The position numbers were made by a program, and so were the translations under genes. This document shows, piece by piece, positions 23,127 to 30,607 of a stretch of DNA of 60,220 bases. Numbering within the stretch: position 1 is the stretch's first letter; every line of letters begins with the position of its first letter. Below the pieces are notes generated by a model. That model ran no database searches. It was not told the origin of the DNA and saw nothing but the letters and a program-made list of their open reading frames with translations. The DNA comes from Clostridiaceae bacterium (GTDB taxonomy: Bacteria; Bacillota; Clostridia; DSM-8532), in contig JAAYXD010000070.1 of the NCBI GenBank assembly GCA_012516065.1, forward strand, positions 1 to 60,220, read 5' to 3'.

Positions 23127-24782
23127 TCACCTGGAAATTGCCGCCCTGTTCAGAGCGCAGATTATCGCGAGGAACGATGCGGTTGTTGTATTGCGGTCTT
23201 TTCCGACACCGAAAATACTTCTGCCTCCGCCGTTTTCAAGCTGGATATACGCAACTGCTTCCGCGTCCGCTCCGCTTGAAAGCGCATGTTCTTCATACGC
23301 CTCAAACTTATGGTTCGAAATCCCCCTGTTCTTCAATGCGTCAAAGAAAGCGGATATAGGACCGTTCCCCGTTCCGGTTATTGTTTCGATTTTGTCATTC
23401 ACCGATATCTCCGCATTAACGACAACATTATCGCCCCTGCTTGATATGGTGTAATCCACCAGCCGGTAGGGCCCCTTAACTTCGAGATAGTTTTTGTTGA
23501 ATTCGCGGAATATTTCTTCCGGAGTAAGCTCTTTGCCGAGAGAATCGGATTTCTTTTTAATTATCTTTCCAAACTCCGGATGCATCGCTTTCGGAAGATT
23601 GTACCCGAATTCATGCTCCATTACAAACGCAACTCCGCCTTTTCCGGACTGGCTGTTAATTCTGATTATAGCTTCATACTGTCTTCCGATATCCGAAGGA
23701 TCAATCGGCAGGTATGGTATATCCCAATATTCGGTCTTATGCTCCCTTGCGTATTGATAGCCCTTGTTTATGGCATCCTGGTGCGAGCCAGAAAAAGCCG
23801 TGAATACCAGTTTTCCTGCATACGGGTGTCTTTCGTGCACCTGCATCCCCGTACACTGTTCGTATACATTAATAATCCTGTCCATATCGGTAATATTCAG
23901 TCCAGGGTCTATTCCCTGCGAATACAGGTTCATAGCAAGGGTTATGATGTCCACGTTTCCCGTACGCTCGCCGTTTCCGAACAATGTTCCCTCGACCCTG
24001 TCCGCTCCGGCCAAAAGCCCGAGCTCCGTCGCGGCGACACTCGTCCCGCGGTCGTTGTGCGTATGAAGGCTTAAAATTATACTGTCCCTGCAGCTAATGT
24101 GGTTATGGAACCATTCTATCTGATCGGCATACACGTTCGGAGTCGACATTTCAACGGTCGCCGGCAGATTAATGATGGCCTTTTTCTCCGGGCTCGGCTG
24201 CCATACATTCATAACTTTCTCGCATATTTCCAGCGCAAAATCCATTTCCGTGCCGGTAAAGCTTTCGGGAGAATACTCAAACCGTATATCGGCGTCGCAG
24301 TCACGGCATAACTGTTTTATAAGGCGTGTGCCTTCAAGCGCGATTTCTATGATTTCGCGCTTATCTTTCTTAAAAACTATTCTCCTCTGCTGTTCGGATG
24401 TCGAGTTGTATAAATGTATAATTGCCTTCTTGGCTCCCTGTACGGATTCCATTGTCCTTTTTATAAGGTGTTCCCTCGACTGTGTTAAAACCTGGATAAT
24501 GACATCGTCGCTGAGATACCCTTTTTCAATCAGTGTGCGGACAAACCTGAAATCCGTATCCGACGCGGATGGAAACGCAACCTCGATCTCCTTGAACCCA
24601 AGCCTTGTCAGTAAATTGAACATTTTCAGCTTTTTTTCAACACTCATCGGTATCGGAAGAGCCTGGTTTCCGTCCCTTAAATCCACGCTGCACCATATCG
24701 GGGCCTTATCTATCGTGTTATCCGGCCAATTTCTTTTTTCCATTTTCATTACAGGGTATTTCCTGTATTTTTTCCAATTCAT
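23127..24782 (-). CDS. leuA: 2-isopropylmalate synthase, long (LeuA2) form
   Basis: First committed step of leucine synthesis: acetyl-CoA + 2-ketoisovalerate. The N-terminal TIM barrel has the signature IWCSVDLRDGNQALPIPMS, and the metal-binding SLHTHNDRGTSVA and GTLFGNGERTGNVD blocks follow. The C-terminal regulatory domain (~430-551) ends with the glycine-rich feedback-site region ENGGGRSIFGVGKD. At 551 aa with a long N-terminus it is the type II enzyme of actinobacteria and yeast rather than the ~510-aa type I. GGGAGGGG precedes the ATG. It is controlled by the T-box leader upstream and is not part of a larger leu operon here. Confidence 0.97.
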   Translation of the reverse strand: MNWKKYRKYPVMKMEKRNWPDNTIDKAPIWCSVDLRDGNQALPIPMSVEKKLKMFNLLTRLGFKEIEVAFPSASDTDFRFVRTLIEKGYLSDDVIIQVLTQSREHLIKRTMESVQGAKKAIIHLYNSTSEQQRRIVFKKDKREIIEIALEGTRLIKQLCRDCDADIRFEYSPESFTGTEMDFALEICEKVMNVWQPSPEKKAIINLPATVEMSTPNVYADQIEWFHNHISCRDSIILSLHTHNDRGTSVAATELGLLAGADRVEGTLFGNGERTGNVDIITLAMNLYSQGIDPGLNITDMDRIINVYEQCTGMQVHERHPYAGKLVFTAFSGSHQDAINKGYQYAREHKTEYWDIPYLPIDPSDIGRQYEAIIRINSQSGKGGVAFVMEHEFGYNLPKAMHPEFGKIIKKKSDSLGKELTPEEIFREFNKNYLEVKGPYRLVDYTISSRGDNVVVNAEISVNDKIETITGTGNGPISAFFDALKNRGISNHKFEAYEEHALSSGADAEAVAYIQLENGGGRSIFGVGKDRNTTTASFLAIICALNRAAISR

Positions 24783-25189
24783 TTCTAACCCCTCCCAAAT
24801 TCAGCTTAATTTGTCCGATAAAATAAAAACCCCTTTCATCCCAAGCAAGAGACGAAAGGGGAACTTCCGCGGTACCACTCTTTTTTATTCCTCAAAAGGA
24901 ATACCCTCATTACAGATACCGGCACAATATTCCTGTTATCCTATAATAAAAAACCCTTCGCCAAAAGAGACGAAAGGACATAATTAACCACTCTTTTGCT
25001 TCCGGATACAGGTTTATCCTACCGATATCCTGCCCTCATAACGGTGGGCTTCCGTCCTGTCCTACTGTTATTTCAGATGGCAACTCCGGGGCCAGTTCAA
25101 TGCATATCCCCTGCTGTTTCGCACCACCCAACAGCTCTCTGAAAGGTTCCTTGCACCTACTACTCCCCTTCATGGTTTTTAAAATATTT
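24783..25189 (-). promoter_or_regulatory. T-box leader of leuA with two antiterminator/terminator modules
   Basis: Stem I is recognisable on the minus strand: GGGGAGTAGTAGG (from ~25168), the GCTGTT / AACAGC arm with GGTGCGA in its loop, and the specifier region GAACTGGCCCC (25098-25088). CTG (25095-25093), a Leu codon followed by a purine, is the likely specifier; reading TGG (Trp) one base later is possible but unlikely before leuA. The canonical T-box GTGGTACCGCGG (24878-24867) precedes a terminator, CCCCTTTC / GAAAGGGG plus TTTTT (24861-24825). A second, diverged module lies upstream: an 8-bp helix CAAAAGAG / CTCTTTTG enclosing TGGT (24998-24962), and its own terminator CCTTTCG / CGAAGGG plus TTTTTT (24977-24948). 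TGGT would pair with an ACCA tRNA end, consistent with A73 of tRNA-Leu. Confidence 0.9.
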
Positions 25190-25195
25190 TAAGAC

Positions 25196-25224
25196 ATCGT
25201 AGCACAGCTTACAGCATTTGTCAA
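25196..25224 (-). promoter_or_regulatory. SigA promoter of the leuA T-box transcript
   Basis: On the minus strand, -35 TTGACA (25224-25219), 17 nt, then -10 TACGAT (25201-25196). Transcription should begin near 25189, giving a leader of about 400 nt. A long hairpin with arms GCATAAAA.TT / AA.TTTTATGC (25225-25250) ends directly at the -35 box and may serve as a poor terminator for gap. Confidence 0.75.
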
Positions 25225-25291
25225 GCATAAAATTTCGCCAATTTTTATGCGGGTTTTCGGCATAATTTTCGCGGGTCCTGCTTCGACCTTA

Positions 25292-26305
25292 TTACAAGCC
25301 TTTACTGGCTACAAATGCCGCCAGGTCGGCGTATCTGTTCGAATAACCCCACTCATTGTCATACCACGAAACGACTTTAACCATATTATCAATAACCATT
25401 GTGGACAACGCATCAAATGTGGAAGATGCCGGTTCGCCCCTGTAGTCAATCGAAACCAAAGGTTCTTCCGAATAATTCAGGATTCCTTTCATTCTGCCTT
25501 CAGCCGCGGCTTTAAATATAGCATTGACTTCATCTCTTGAAACAGGCCTTTCGGTCTCCGCTGCGAGGTCAATTACCGAAACGGCAAATGTCGGGACCCT
25601 GAAAGAAAACCCGTTTAGTCTGCCTTCCAGTTCAGGAATTATACGCCCTATCGTTTTCGCGGCTCCCGTTTTTGTCGGTATGATCGACACAGCGGCTGCT
25701 CTTGCCCTTCTTAAGTCATTATGAGGCAGATCCAGAATCCTCTGGTCGTTTGTATACGCATGGACCGTAGTCATGAATCCTTTCTTAATTCCAATGCTGT
25801 CATGCAATACTTTTACCACCGGAGCCAAACCGTTCGTTGTGCAGGATGCGTTTGAAATAATATTGTGCGCGTCTTTGTCATACTTATCGTCATTTACGCC
25901 TAATACTATGGTGATATCATCACCGGTCGCCGGAGCGGATATAAGTACTTTTTTCGCTCCGCCCTTAGTAATATAGATTTCAGCTTTTTCCCTTTTTGTA
26001 AACAATCCTGTGGATTCGAGGACAATCTCAACCCCAAGAGCTTTCCAGTCGATATTTTCAGGGTTTCGTTCGGCCAGTATTTTTACCGGTTTGCCATCAA
26101 CAATCAACTCATCCTCTTCTGCCTCAACCGTCCCGTTATACTTTCCGAATACCGAGTCATATTTAAGAAGATGAGCCAGCGTTTTTGAGTCCGTCAGATC
26201 ATTTACGGCGACAACGTCAAGTTCGTCCTGATATTTCTCCATGATGACCTTGAAAGTGTTCCTTCCTATTCTTCCAAATCCGTTAATTCCTATTTTTGCT
26301 TTCAT
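25292..26305 (-). CDS. gap: Glyceraldehyde-3-phosphate dehydrogenase
   Basis: NAD-dependent glycolytic enzyme. The Rossmann motif INGFGRIGRN is at the start, the catalytic Cys is in SNASCTTNGLAPV, and the C-terminal WYDNEWGYSNRY block is intact. ATG 26305 has AAGGAGG 8 nt upstream; a TTG three bases earlier is ignored. About 337 aa, full length. It is transcribed away from the LysR gene, with only ~100 nt between them. No pgk/tpi genes follow, so it is a single-gene unit here. Confidence 0.97.
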   Translation of the reverse strand: MKAKIGINGFGRIGRNTFKVIMEKYQDELDVVAVNDLTDSKTLAHLLKYDSVFGKYNGTVEAEEDELIVDGKPVKILAERNPENIDWKALGVEIVLESTGLFTKREKAEIYITKGGAKKVLISAPATGDDITIVLGVNDDKYDKDAHNIISNASCTTNGLAPVVKVLHDSIGIKKGFMTTVHAYTNDQRILDLPHNDLRRARAAAVSIIPTKTGAAKTIGRIIPELEGRLNGFSFRVPTFAVSVIDLAAETERPVSRDEVNAIFKAAAEGRMKGILNYSEEPLVSIDYRGEPASSTFDALSTMVIDNMVKVVSWYDNEWGYSNRYADLAAFVASKGL

Positions 26306-27502: not shown

Positions 27503-30500
27503 ATGAGCATTACTAAAAACATTAAAAGAACAACGGCGCTTGTACTGATGCTGGCATTCGCACTTTTGTGCATGCCTGCTGTAAAGGCGGAAACAACGGT
27601 GTACAGTGAAAGCTTTCTGAATGGAATCGGTGCGGCGGTACAATCAGGAGGAGCAAAATTAACGCATGTTACCGGTAAAATATTTGACGAGAATGACGAC
27701 GGGTCGGCTTTATATGTATCAAACAGAATAAACAACTGGGATGCCGCAGATTTCAGGTTCAGTGACATAGGATTGCTGAACGGGAGGACATATAAAATTA
27801 CGGTAAAAGGATATGTCGATCCTGACGCAGATGTCCCGGCCGGCTCGCAAATCTGGCTTCAGACCGTCAACAGCTACGGCTGGTGGGGAGGCGTCGATAT
27901 TAAAGCCGGGGAGGCTTTCACGCTGACGGGTATATATACCGTCGATACGGGCAGCGACATAAGCCTGCGTGTCCAATCGAACGACCTCGGCGCTTCCGTT
28001 CCTTTCTATATCGGCGAGATAATAATTACAGAGCAGGCCGGCCAGGCTGTTCCTGCCGATGATGCCGAAGAACAGCCGAAAACTCCTGCCGAAACCTTTA
28101 CGCCGATAACCTTTGAAAATAATACCGCCGAAGGCTTTACCGGCAGGGCAGGAACCGAAATCCTTACCGTAACCGATGAAGCAAACCATACTGACGGCGG
28201 AAAATACTCGTTAAAGACGGAAGGAAGAGCAAGCACATGGCATGGTCCTTCTTTACGCGTGGAAAAATACGTGGACCAGGGCAGCGAATATAAAGTTTCG
28301 GTATGGGTTAAGCTGATTTCGCCCGAGAATGCGACACTCCAGCTGTCTACTCAAATCGGGGAAGGTTCGGGCGCGAGCTATGTAAATCTCGTATCGAAAG
28401 CCGTAAGCACGAGGGACGGCTGGGTCCAACTGGAAGGAATGTACCGTTACAACAATATGGGCAACGGATATCTGACTATATACGTTGAAAGCCCCAACAG
28501 TCCGGAAGCCTCGTTCTATATAGACGACATCAGCTTTGAAGCTACGGGGTCAAAACTCGACGGAATACAAAAAGACCTGAAACCTGTTAAAGATGTATAC
28601 AAGGACAAGTTTTTAATCGGTACCGCGATATCGCCGCAGGACTTCGAAGGATTAAGGTTCGAACTTCTGAATATGCATTTCAATTCCGTAACAGCCGAAA
28701 ACGCGATGAAACCAAGTGAGCTCCAGCCGACGAAAGGCAATTTTACGTTCGACGCCGCCGACAAGCTTGTTGACGCTGCGATTGATGCCGGAATGAAAGT
28801 ACATGGGCACACACTTGTCTGGCACCAGCAGTCTCCGGACTGGATGAACACATCAAAGGATGCCGAAGGCAATACGGTTTATCTAAGCAGGGAAGAAGCT
28901 CTTGAAAATTTGAGGAACCATATTAAGACAGTTGTCGAACATTTCGGCGGCAGGGTTATATCGTGGGATGTTGTCAATGAAGCAATGAGCGACAATCCGC
29001 CGAATCCGTCCGACTGGAAAGGCTCGCTTCGCAAATCCCCGTGGTATTACGCTATCGGGGAAGACTATGTAGAGCAGGCTTTCCTCGCAGCAAGGGAAGT
29101 GCTCGACGAACATCCCGAATGGGATATTAAGCTTTATTACAACGACTATAACCTTGACAACCAGAACAAGGCCCGGGCAGTCTACAATATGGTGAAGGAG
29201 ATTAACGAAAACTACCAGAAAACCCATCCGGGAAAACTTCTGATCGACGGCATAGGCATGCAGGGGCATTACTCCGTAAGCACAAACCCGACGAATGTTA
29301 AACTGTCGCTGGAAAGATTTATTGAATTAGGCGTGGAGGTCAGCATATCCGAGCTTGATGTCCGTGCGGGGAGCAATTTCCTGTTGTCCGAAAAAGAGGC
29401 CGACGCCCAGGGATACTTCTATGCCCAACTGTTTAAGCTTCTCAGTGATAATGCCGACAGTGTCGCCCGCGTTACGTTCTGGGGAATGGATGACGGAACA
29501 AGCTGGAGATCTGCCGAAAATCCTCTGCCGTTTGACAAGACTTATAAAGCAAAACCAGCATATTATGCCGTGGTTGATCCCGAGGCATTCATTGAAGAGC
29601 ATAAGCCCGAAACACCGGAAGCAAACAGGACATATGCCCCTTACGGCACTCCGGTAATCGACGGGATAGCCGATGAAATCTGGAACGACGCCCCGGAGAT
29701 TCCTGTTAACCGGTACCAGACAGCATGGCACGGCGCAAGCGGAACGGCGAGGGTTCTCTATGACGAGAGCAATTTATACGTCTTAATTAAAGTAAATGAT
29801 ACACAGCTTGATAAGGGAAGCGCTAATCCGTGGGAGCAGGATTCAATTGAAGTCTTCATTGATGAAAACAACGCGAAAACAACATTTTATGAAGACGATG
29901 ACGGGCAGTACAGGGTAAATTACGATAACGAGACATCTTTCAATCCCGAAAGCATTGCAGAGGGATTCGAATCTGCGGTAGAGGTTTCGGGAACAAACTA
30001 TACCGTTGAAGTAAAAATACCGTTCAGAACGATAAAACCGGTAAGCAACATGCAGATCGGCATTGATGTGCAGATTAACGACGGCAGCGACGGCGCGCGC
30101 CAGAGTATCGCCACATGGAATGATATCACAGGAAACGCTTACCAGGATACTTCCGTTATCGGTATCCTGGCATTCAGGGCCAAAAAGCCGGTAACCCGCG
30201 GCGAAGCTATTGTAATGATTATGAAAGCTTACGGCGTAGAGCCTCTGGATAACTGGACCGATAACTTCACAGACGCTTCAGGCGAATATGCGGGATATTA
30301 TGCAAAGGCTAAAGAAATCGGGTTTATTAACGGTATCGGCGGCAACAGGATAGGGGCGGATATCCCGATGACCCGGGAAATGCTGTACACAATGCTGTAT
30401 AATATCGAGAGTTTAACGGGGAAAATACAGGAAGCGGATATTTCGAACATTGATTTATCAGGCTTTTACGATTATAAAGAGCTTTCTGACTGGTCCTTAA

Positions 30501-30607
30501 AAGCTGTCAGGGCGCTCGTCAAATCGGGCAGGTTACGGGTAGATGGCAATGATCTGCTTCCGAAATCTTTCGTCGATGCTGAAGAAATAAACGCCATTCT
30601 GGAATAA
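27503..30607 (+). CDS. Cell-surface endo-1,4-beta-xylanase, CBM22-CBM22-GH10-CBM9-SLH
   Basis: Secreted, wall-anchored xylanase of 1034 aa. A signal peptide (1-~29, ending MPAVKA) leads to two CBM22-like modules (~31-175 and ~198-348). A GH10 catalytic domain follows (~355-705), with acid/base Glu493 in DVVNEAM and nucleophile Glu617 in SISELDV. A CBM9-type module (~715-890, [15 protein letters not shown]) and an S-layer homology region (~893-1034) complete it. Only about two SLH motifs fit in the last 140 residues rather than the usual three. GGAGGTGG sits 4 nt before the ATG. The layout matches xylanases of C. stercorarium and C. thermocellum. A decayed copy of its 3' end lies at 39.8-40.0 kb. 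It converges on a LacI-controlled uptake operon that probably handles its products. Confidence 0.96.

Follow-up and report, generated by a model that had tools for sequence, protein, structure and literature searches.

Two serial antiterminator/terminator modules on the single Stem I of a Clostridiaceae leuA leader, and a possible strand exchange in the linker hairpin

The leader of leuA in the Clostridiaceae bacterium contig analysed here (60,220 nucleotides in full, referred to below as the window) extends from 25182 to 24825 on the reverse strand and is composed of one Stem I, one Stem II with Stem IIA/B, and two antiterminator/terminator modules arranged in series. The reading towards which we lean slightly is that it acts as a partially tandem, tRNA-Leu-sensing transcriptional T-box in which two serial termination decisions are made on one Stem I, with an exchange of strands. 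The new element is a linker hairpin (hairpin 1) with one 5′ arm and, as predicted by folding, two possible 3′ partners, ACCUGUAUC and CCGGUAUC. The two-module layout is kept in relatives and recurs in other bacteria, which gives it the look of a genuine regulatory design and not of debris. The features of the leader and its surroundings are shown in Table 1.

Table 1. Features of the leuA leader and its flanks (coordinates in the window).
Feature	Coordinates	Strand	Basis
Promoter-like site, TTGACA-17-TACGAT, TG ahead of second hexamer	25196..25224	-	Consensus scan
Stem I, single (T-box sensor arm)	25084..25177	-	RF00230 alignment
Specifier codon CUG (Leu), within GAACUGGCCCC	25093..25095	-	Register
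Stem II	25056..25084	-	Rfam alignment
Stem IIA/B pseudoknot, ACGG/CCGU and GCCC/GGGC	25032..25056	-	98.1% and 96.2% of cells paired
Hairpin 1 (linker hairpin)	25005..25029	-	8 pairs, 99.0% of cells paired
Antiterminator 1, CAAAAGAG / CUCUUUUG around UGGU (24990-24987)	24962..24998	-	95.3% of cells paired
Terminator 1, CCUUUCGUC/GGCGAAGGG and U6	24948..24977	-	Terminator scan
Post-terminator-1 segment, ACAGG...CCGGUAUCUG, carries 3′ arm 2	24913..24936	-	Predicted pairing, swap test
Stem III of module 2	24886..24904	-	4 pairs changed on both sides
Antiterminator 2, canonical, AAGAGUGGUACCGCGG ... CGUCUCUU	24845..24885	-	Rfam alignment
Terminator 2	24825..24861	-	Terminator scan, 13 pairs
leuA, 2-isopropylmalate synthase (yeast-type LeuA)	23127..24782	-	NF002991.1, TIGR00970

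The Rfam covariance model RF00230 gives a single match in the leader, at 25182-24845 on the reverse strand, with a score of 133.8 bits against a cut-off of 93 and covering model positions 1-219. This match is stretched to 338 nt by some 120 nt that the model does not describe, inserted between Stem IIA/B and the canonical antiterminator. The inserted stretch contains the arms CAAAAGAG and CUCUUUUG, flanking UGGU (24998-24962), together with a terminator hairpin (24977-24954) whose T-run, TTTTTT, occupies 24953-24948. The terminator scan recovered this hairpin (9 pairs) and a second one at 24861-24830 (13 pairs), and the leader scan contains four terminator-like sites compared with a mean of 0.7 in shuffled sequences. 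Exact repeats, AAAAGAGTGGT and CCTTTCGTCTCTT, are common to both modules, and module 2 has the canonical UGGUACCGCGG in competition with its 13-pair terminator. The first-pass annotation of this DNA had proposed one Stem I with two antiterminator/terminator modules, the upstream one a copy that has diverged but still has the UGGU for tRNA pairing, in a helix at 24998-24962, and a T-run terminator at 24977-24948; the stretched covariance match, the insert, the two scanned terminators and the exact repeats bear this out at those positions. No second Stem I is present in the leader, RF00230 matching once and the insert being devoid of a Stem I, so that the arrangement is partially rather than fully tandem.

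Could the upstream hairpin belong to the Stem II/III region of an ordinary T-box, the circumstance in which the first-pass annotation would have had to be withdrawn? We reject this, as Stem II (25084-25056) and Stem IIA/B (25056-25032) lie wholly upstream of it and module 2 has its own Stem III; both the IIA/B helices, with one pair in each changed on both sides among relatives, and the Stem III of module 2 covary. Another rival would be a T-box with an unrelated riboswitch, such as a ppGpp riboswitch, behind it; combinations of a T-box with a guanidine/ppGpp-type riboswitch are reported before leuA and ilv genes of Bacillota (PMC12452182). We regard the probability of this here as negligible and have rejected it, since between 24780 and 25240 every other Rfam family stays below its gathering score and the weak matches fall far under their cut-offs.

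The gene downstream is leuA, its product scoring 839.7 bits with NF002991.1 (cut-off 455) and 764.6 bits with TIGR00970 (cut-off 697.4). Upstream of the leader, the promoter-like site agrees with the consensus at 10 of 12 positions, although chance alone would be expected to give about one such site there; its TTGAC is kept in most of the aligned relatives, and transcription of the leader is expected to start at about 25189. The interval between this site and the upstream gap gene (stop at 25292), 25225-25291, contains an AT-rich inverted repeat, GCATAAAAATTGGCGAAATTTTATGC, and no clear terminator, so readthrough into the leader is possible. A large secreted protein encoded at 27503-30607 resembles, from a reading of its sequence, a xylanase carrying binding modules and surface-layer repeats.

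The register that places the specifier codon at CUG agrees with CUC in another leader (L027) and with UGG in a trpE leader of the source genome (L008). That genome encodes tRNA-Leu(CAG), with the end ACCA, and tRNA-Trp(CCA), with the end GCCA, as found with Rfam and ARAGORN; a leucine specifier, a leucine biosynthesis gene downstream and a matching tRNA are thus all present. The leuA leader has UGGU in each of its modules, matching the ACCA of tRNA-Leu(CAG), and the trpE leader has UGGC in each, matching the GCCA of tRNA-Trp(CCA). The correct discriminator partner in module 1 would be expected if module 1 pairs with the tRNA end, albeit common descent of the two modules within one leader could also account for it.

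Among 32 genomes compared in the family of the source genome, the double leuA leader is found in 12, representing five genera (G000, G001, G002, G017-G021 and G023-G026). A sequence pattern was also run on 391 genomes of the class and in two family surveys, and the loci used from outside the family were read by eye. Matches include leuA leaders of the same kind in a second family (9 of 40 genomes), argC and argG leaders in a third (21 of 71 genomes, a few of these matches being false), and a single leader before aspS2 (L150). Since the pattern is narrow these counts are lower bounds; they leave out L158 and L164, in which the first AGTGG belongs to the sensor part instead of an antiterminator, L180, L183 and L193, which were judged false from the matched sequence, and L162. 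The source genome itself has a trpE (anthranilate synthase) leader of the same kind, so that two of its 14 T-box matches are double. With leaders before leuA, trpE, argC/argG and aspS2 the layout is recurrent, and the suggestion in the first-pass annotation that it is unusual is not supported. Its statement that partial T-box duplications are known as a class is correct: partially tandem T-boxes are mentioned in a review (PMC7583486), which gives their modes of action as unknown.

Module 1 is degenerate in a consistent manner. Both ACC and the A2 helix are absent from it in 13 of 13 leuA leaders, and we therefore do not file module 1 alone as a canonical antiterminator; the first-pass annotation had seen the loss of ACCGCG, and a small correction to it is that conservation does not extend to the A2 helix of module 1. 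Much else in the module is kept, beyond what chance would give. The 11-mer AAAAGAGUGGU ahead of it is invariant in 11 aligned leaders whose overall identity is about 75-89%; the GUCUC core and the core of terminator 1 are likewise conserved in the aligned leuA leaders, whereas drift is seen in the bases from UGGU to the terminator. The antiterminator 1 helix is without variation in this alignment and shows no covariation, so this is conservation without covariation. A decaying duplicate with no present function would explain why half of the T-box sequence is missing, although helix, UGGU, terminator stem and U-run have persisted in five genera and in another family amid drifting surroundings, and we consider such decay very improbable. 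The conserved core, set against that drift and the uniform loss of ACC and A2, indicates instead that module 1 was inherited in a degenerate state and then kept.

Terminator 1 of the leuA leader is predicted at -13.1 kcal/mol and antiterminator 1, without tRNA, at -7.3 kcal/mol, and the terminator is the stabler in every case (-10.1 to -19.2 versus -4.2 to -7.8 kcal/mol). Transcription would thus be expected to stop by default at about 24948 unless antiterminator 1 is held in place, and the ACCA end of a docked tRNA-Leu is the best candidate for holding it. In known T-boxes, ACC and A2 help to form the tRNA-binding discriminator, so that a response of module 1 to tRNA is not assured; it may, speculatively, sense docking instead of charging. 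The loss of ACC and A2 and the greater stability of terminator 1 would also fit a tRNA-independent attenuator, in which terminator 1 is a constitutive partial brake on maximum output and antiterminator 1 a transient folding intermediate. A simple brake would have no need, however, for a near-invariant UGGU and antiterminator 1 helix beside drifting bases, nor for the UGGCACAGC, UGGUAACGCGG or UGGUACCGCGG that module 1 retains in the trpE and arg leaders, and we think this explanation unlikely, albeit the most serious of the alternatives.

The more interesting feature, missed in the first-pass annotation, is a shared hairpin arm within which module 1 is nested. Hairpin 1 consists of the 5′ arm GAUAUCGGU (25029-25021) and 3′ arm 1, ACCUGUAUC (25013-25005), and one of its pairs shows a G-C to A-U double change among relatives. 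Where the family has single T-boxes (L144, L147, L148), one linker hairpin, GGAUAUCGG...CCCGUAUC-UGUAAUGAGUG, precedes Stem III. We note that an extra hairpin, GGAUAUCGG...CCGUAUC, equivalent to 25005-25030 of the window, lies between IIA/B and Stem III in these three leaders and in L095, and is left unpaired by the Rfam model. The double leuA leaders have the 5′ arm once and the 3′ arm twice, as ACCUGUAUC before antiterminator 1 and as CCGGUAUC-UGUAAUGAG after terminator 1.

All of the pairing evidence comes from folding of the completed RNA, the folded region running up to the Stem III of module 2. In these predictions the 5′ arm pairs with the post-terminator-1 segment in 13 of 13 leuA leaders, with a mean probability of 0.58-0.91 versus at most 0.09 locally, and the nested fold is favoured over the sum of the separate local folds by 3.5-17.9 kcal/mol. 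The cross pairing continues into the hairpin loop and 3′ arm 1, with different sequences in different leaders, for example UAACC/GGUUA (L025), GCACC/GGUGC (L022) and GCCUG/CAGGC (L026). Because this variable part is not common to the lineages, we used an alignment-free swap test in which the partners were exchanged between 10 lineages. Cognate partners averaged -24.2 versus -20.5 kcal/mol for non-cognate ones (permutation p=0.00006), and the variable inner part alone gave p=0.002; both values are optimistic, as the 10 lineages are of common ancestry and were treated as independent, and in the inner-part test the cognate pair ranked first in only three of 10 rows. The controls were null, with p=0.29 for the reversed strand and 0.19 ± 0.42 for shuffled sequences versus -1.59 observed. 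The variable part of the post-terminator-1 segment thus co-varies with the loop of hairpin 1.

These results bear on whether strands are exchanged at all, or whether hairpin 1 simply stays in place and module 2 works alone, making two independent serial decisions with the cross-complementarity as a relic of duplication. Duplication of a hairpin automatically yields cross-complementary arms, and the MAFFT alignment reveals no double change in the outer 7 bp of the cross helix. Conservation without double changes would be expected of an arm with two partners, although it is no positive proof of one. Against independent decisions, the 5′ part of the leuA post-terminator-1 segment has lost its resemblance to the original 5′ arm and yet tracks the changing loop of hairpin 1, no local partner is consistently available to 3′ arm 2 alone, and trpE leaders have no visible local 3′ partner ahead of module 1. 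Independent decisions are accordingly quite improbable in our view, though duplication alone could account for the arg leaders.

The trpE leaders, from the source genome (L008 1-360, contig C322) and from a second species (L138), have one Stem I and two modules, each with UGGC. The 5′ arm of Stem III is AACGGAUUUU or AACGAAUU in the two species and its only visible 3′ partner, AAAAUUCGUU or AAUUCGUU, lies after terminator 1, the two versions, of which one is AACGGAUUUU/AAAAUUCGUU, differing by one G-U to A-U change. Module 1 would therefore lie inside the loop of a split Stem III. In the leader of aspS2, encoding aspartate--tRNA(Asn) ligase (L150 1240-1640), the two modules are more than 100 nt apart and are enclosed by an 11-bp helix. 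The argC and argG leaders (L159-L161, L165-L191), present in many genomes of their family, have one Stem I and near-canonical antiterminators, UGGUAACGCGG and then UGGUACCGCGG. Their fold is also nested (p 0.83-1.00), but we do not count this as evidence, since duplication of a whole hairpin could give the same complementarity.

The anatomy of the leader, its conservation, the discriminator match and the conserved potential for pairing are established at the level of sequence and comparison. On this footing, the strand-exchange mechanism that we favour would begin with the docking of uncharged tRNA-Leu(CAG) on Stem I/II. During transcription of module 1, hairpin 1 would form from the 5′ arm and 3′ arm 1 beside the module, and the ACCA end of the tRNA would pair with the UGGU of antiterminator 1, keeping terminator 1 from forming. 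Once polymerase has passed terminator 1, the post-terminator-1 segment would invade hairpin 1, CCGGUAUC capturing the 5′ arm while its ACAGG...UG stretch pairs with the former loop and 3′ arm 1. Module 1 would then be looped out, and the re-formed linker hairpin would stand, as it does in an ordinary T-box, next to Stem III and the canonical antiterminator of module 2. Finally, the same bound tRNA would be checked again, now by the full UGGUACC/A2 discriminator. We infer these as events, namely the action of tRNA on module 1, the exchange of strands in time and the double check. The first-pass annotation proposed that serial decision points on one sensor could make leucine control steeper or two-step.

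A stronger proposition, which we offer tentatively, is that this is a riboswitch that resets itself in the course of transcription, the nascent RNA unzipping hairpin 1, looping out module 1 and rebuilding the binding core beside a fully discriminating second antiterminator, so that one tRNA is proofread twice. If true, one RNA sensor would be re-used sequentially on the same transcript, which would account for a single Stem I serving two terminators, and the same nesting in the trpE and aspS2 leaders would make the reset a design used repeatedly by partially tandem T-boxes. The leader and its relatives offer a testable mechanism, in which a shared arm undergoes strand exchange and the tRNA is handed from a weak first to a canonical second antiterminator, and the relatives are natural variants with which to test it.

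The leuA leader shares with the transcriptional T-box described by RF00230 a specifier-bearing Stem I, a Stem II, the IIA/B pseudoknot and a Stem III, as well as an antiterminator with UGGUACCGCGG, a terminator and an amino-acid gene downstream, and differs from it in having an extra module between IIA/B and Stem III. Fully tandem T-boxes, known for trp, thrS and ilv/leu operons (PMC12452182), likewise make two serial termination decisions for the same amino acid, although there the sensor is repeated, whereas the leuA leader has one Stem I and one specifier. Tandem arrangements of a T-box with a ppGpp-type riboswitch (PMC7583486, PMC12452182) also place a T-box before branched-chain amino acid genes and then a second terminator, but the second module of the leuA leader is a T-box antiterminator, with no other Rfam family above cut-off. 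The closest parallel is with the partially tandem T-boxes of PMC7583486, in which the T-box is repeated in part and one Stem I serves two decision modules. The shared-hairpin arrangement is not described in that review, and an earlier description in the primary T-box surveys is possible. The leuA leader differs from those partially tandem T-boxes in that its first module is degenerate after UGGU and a hairpin is common to both modules through alternative 3′ partners.
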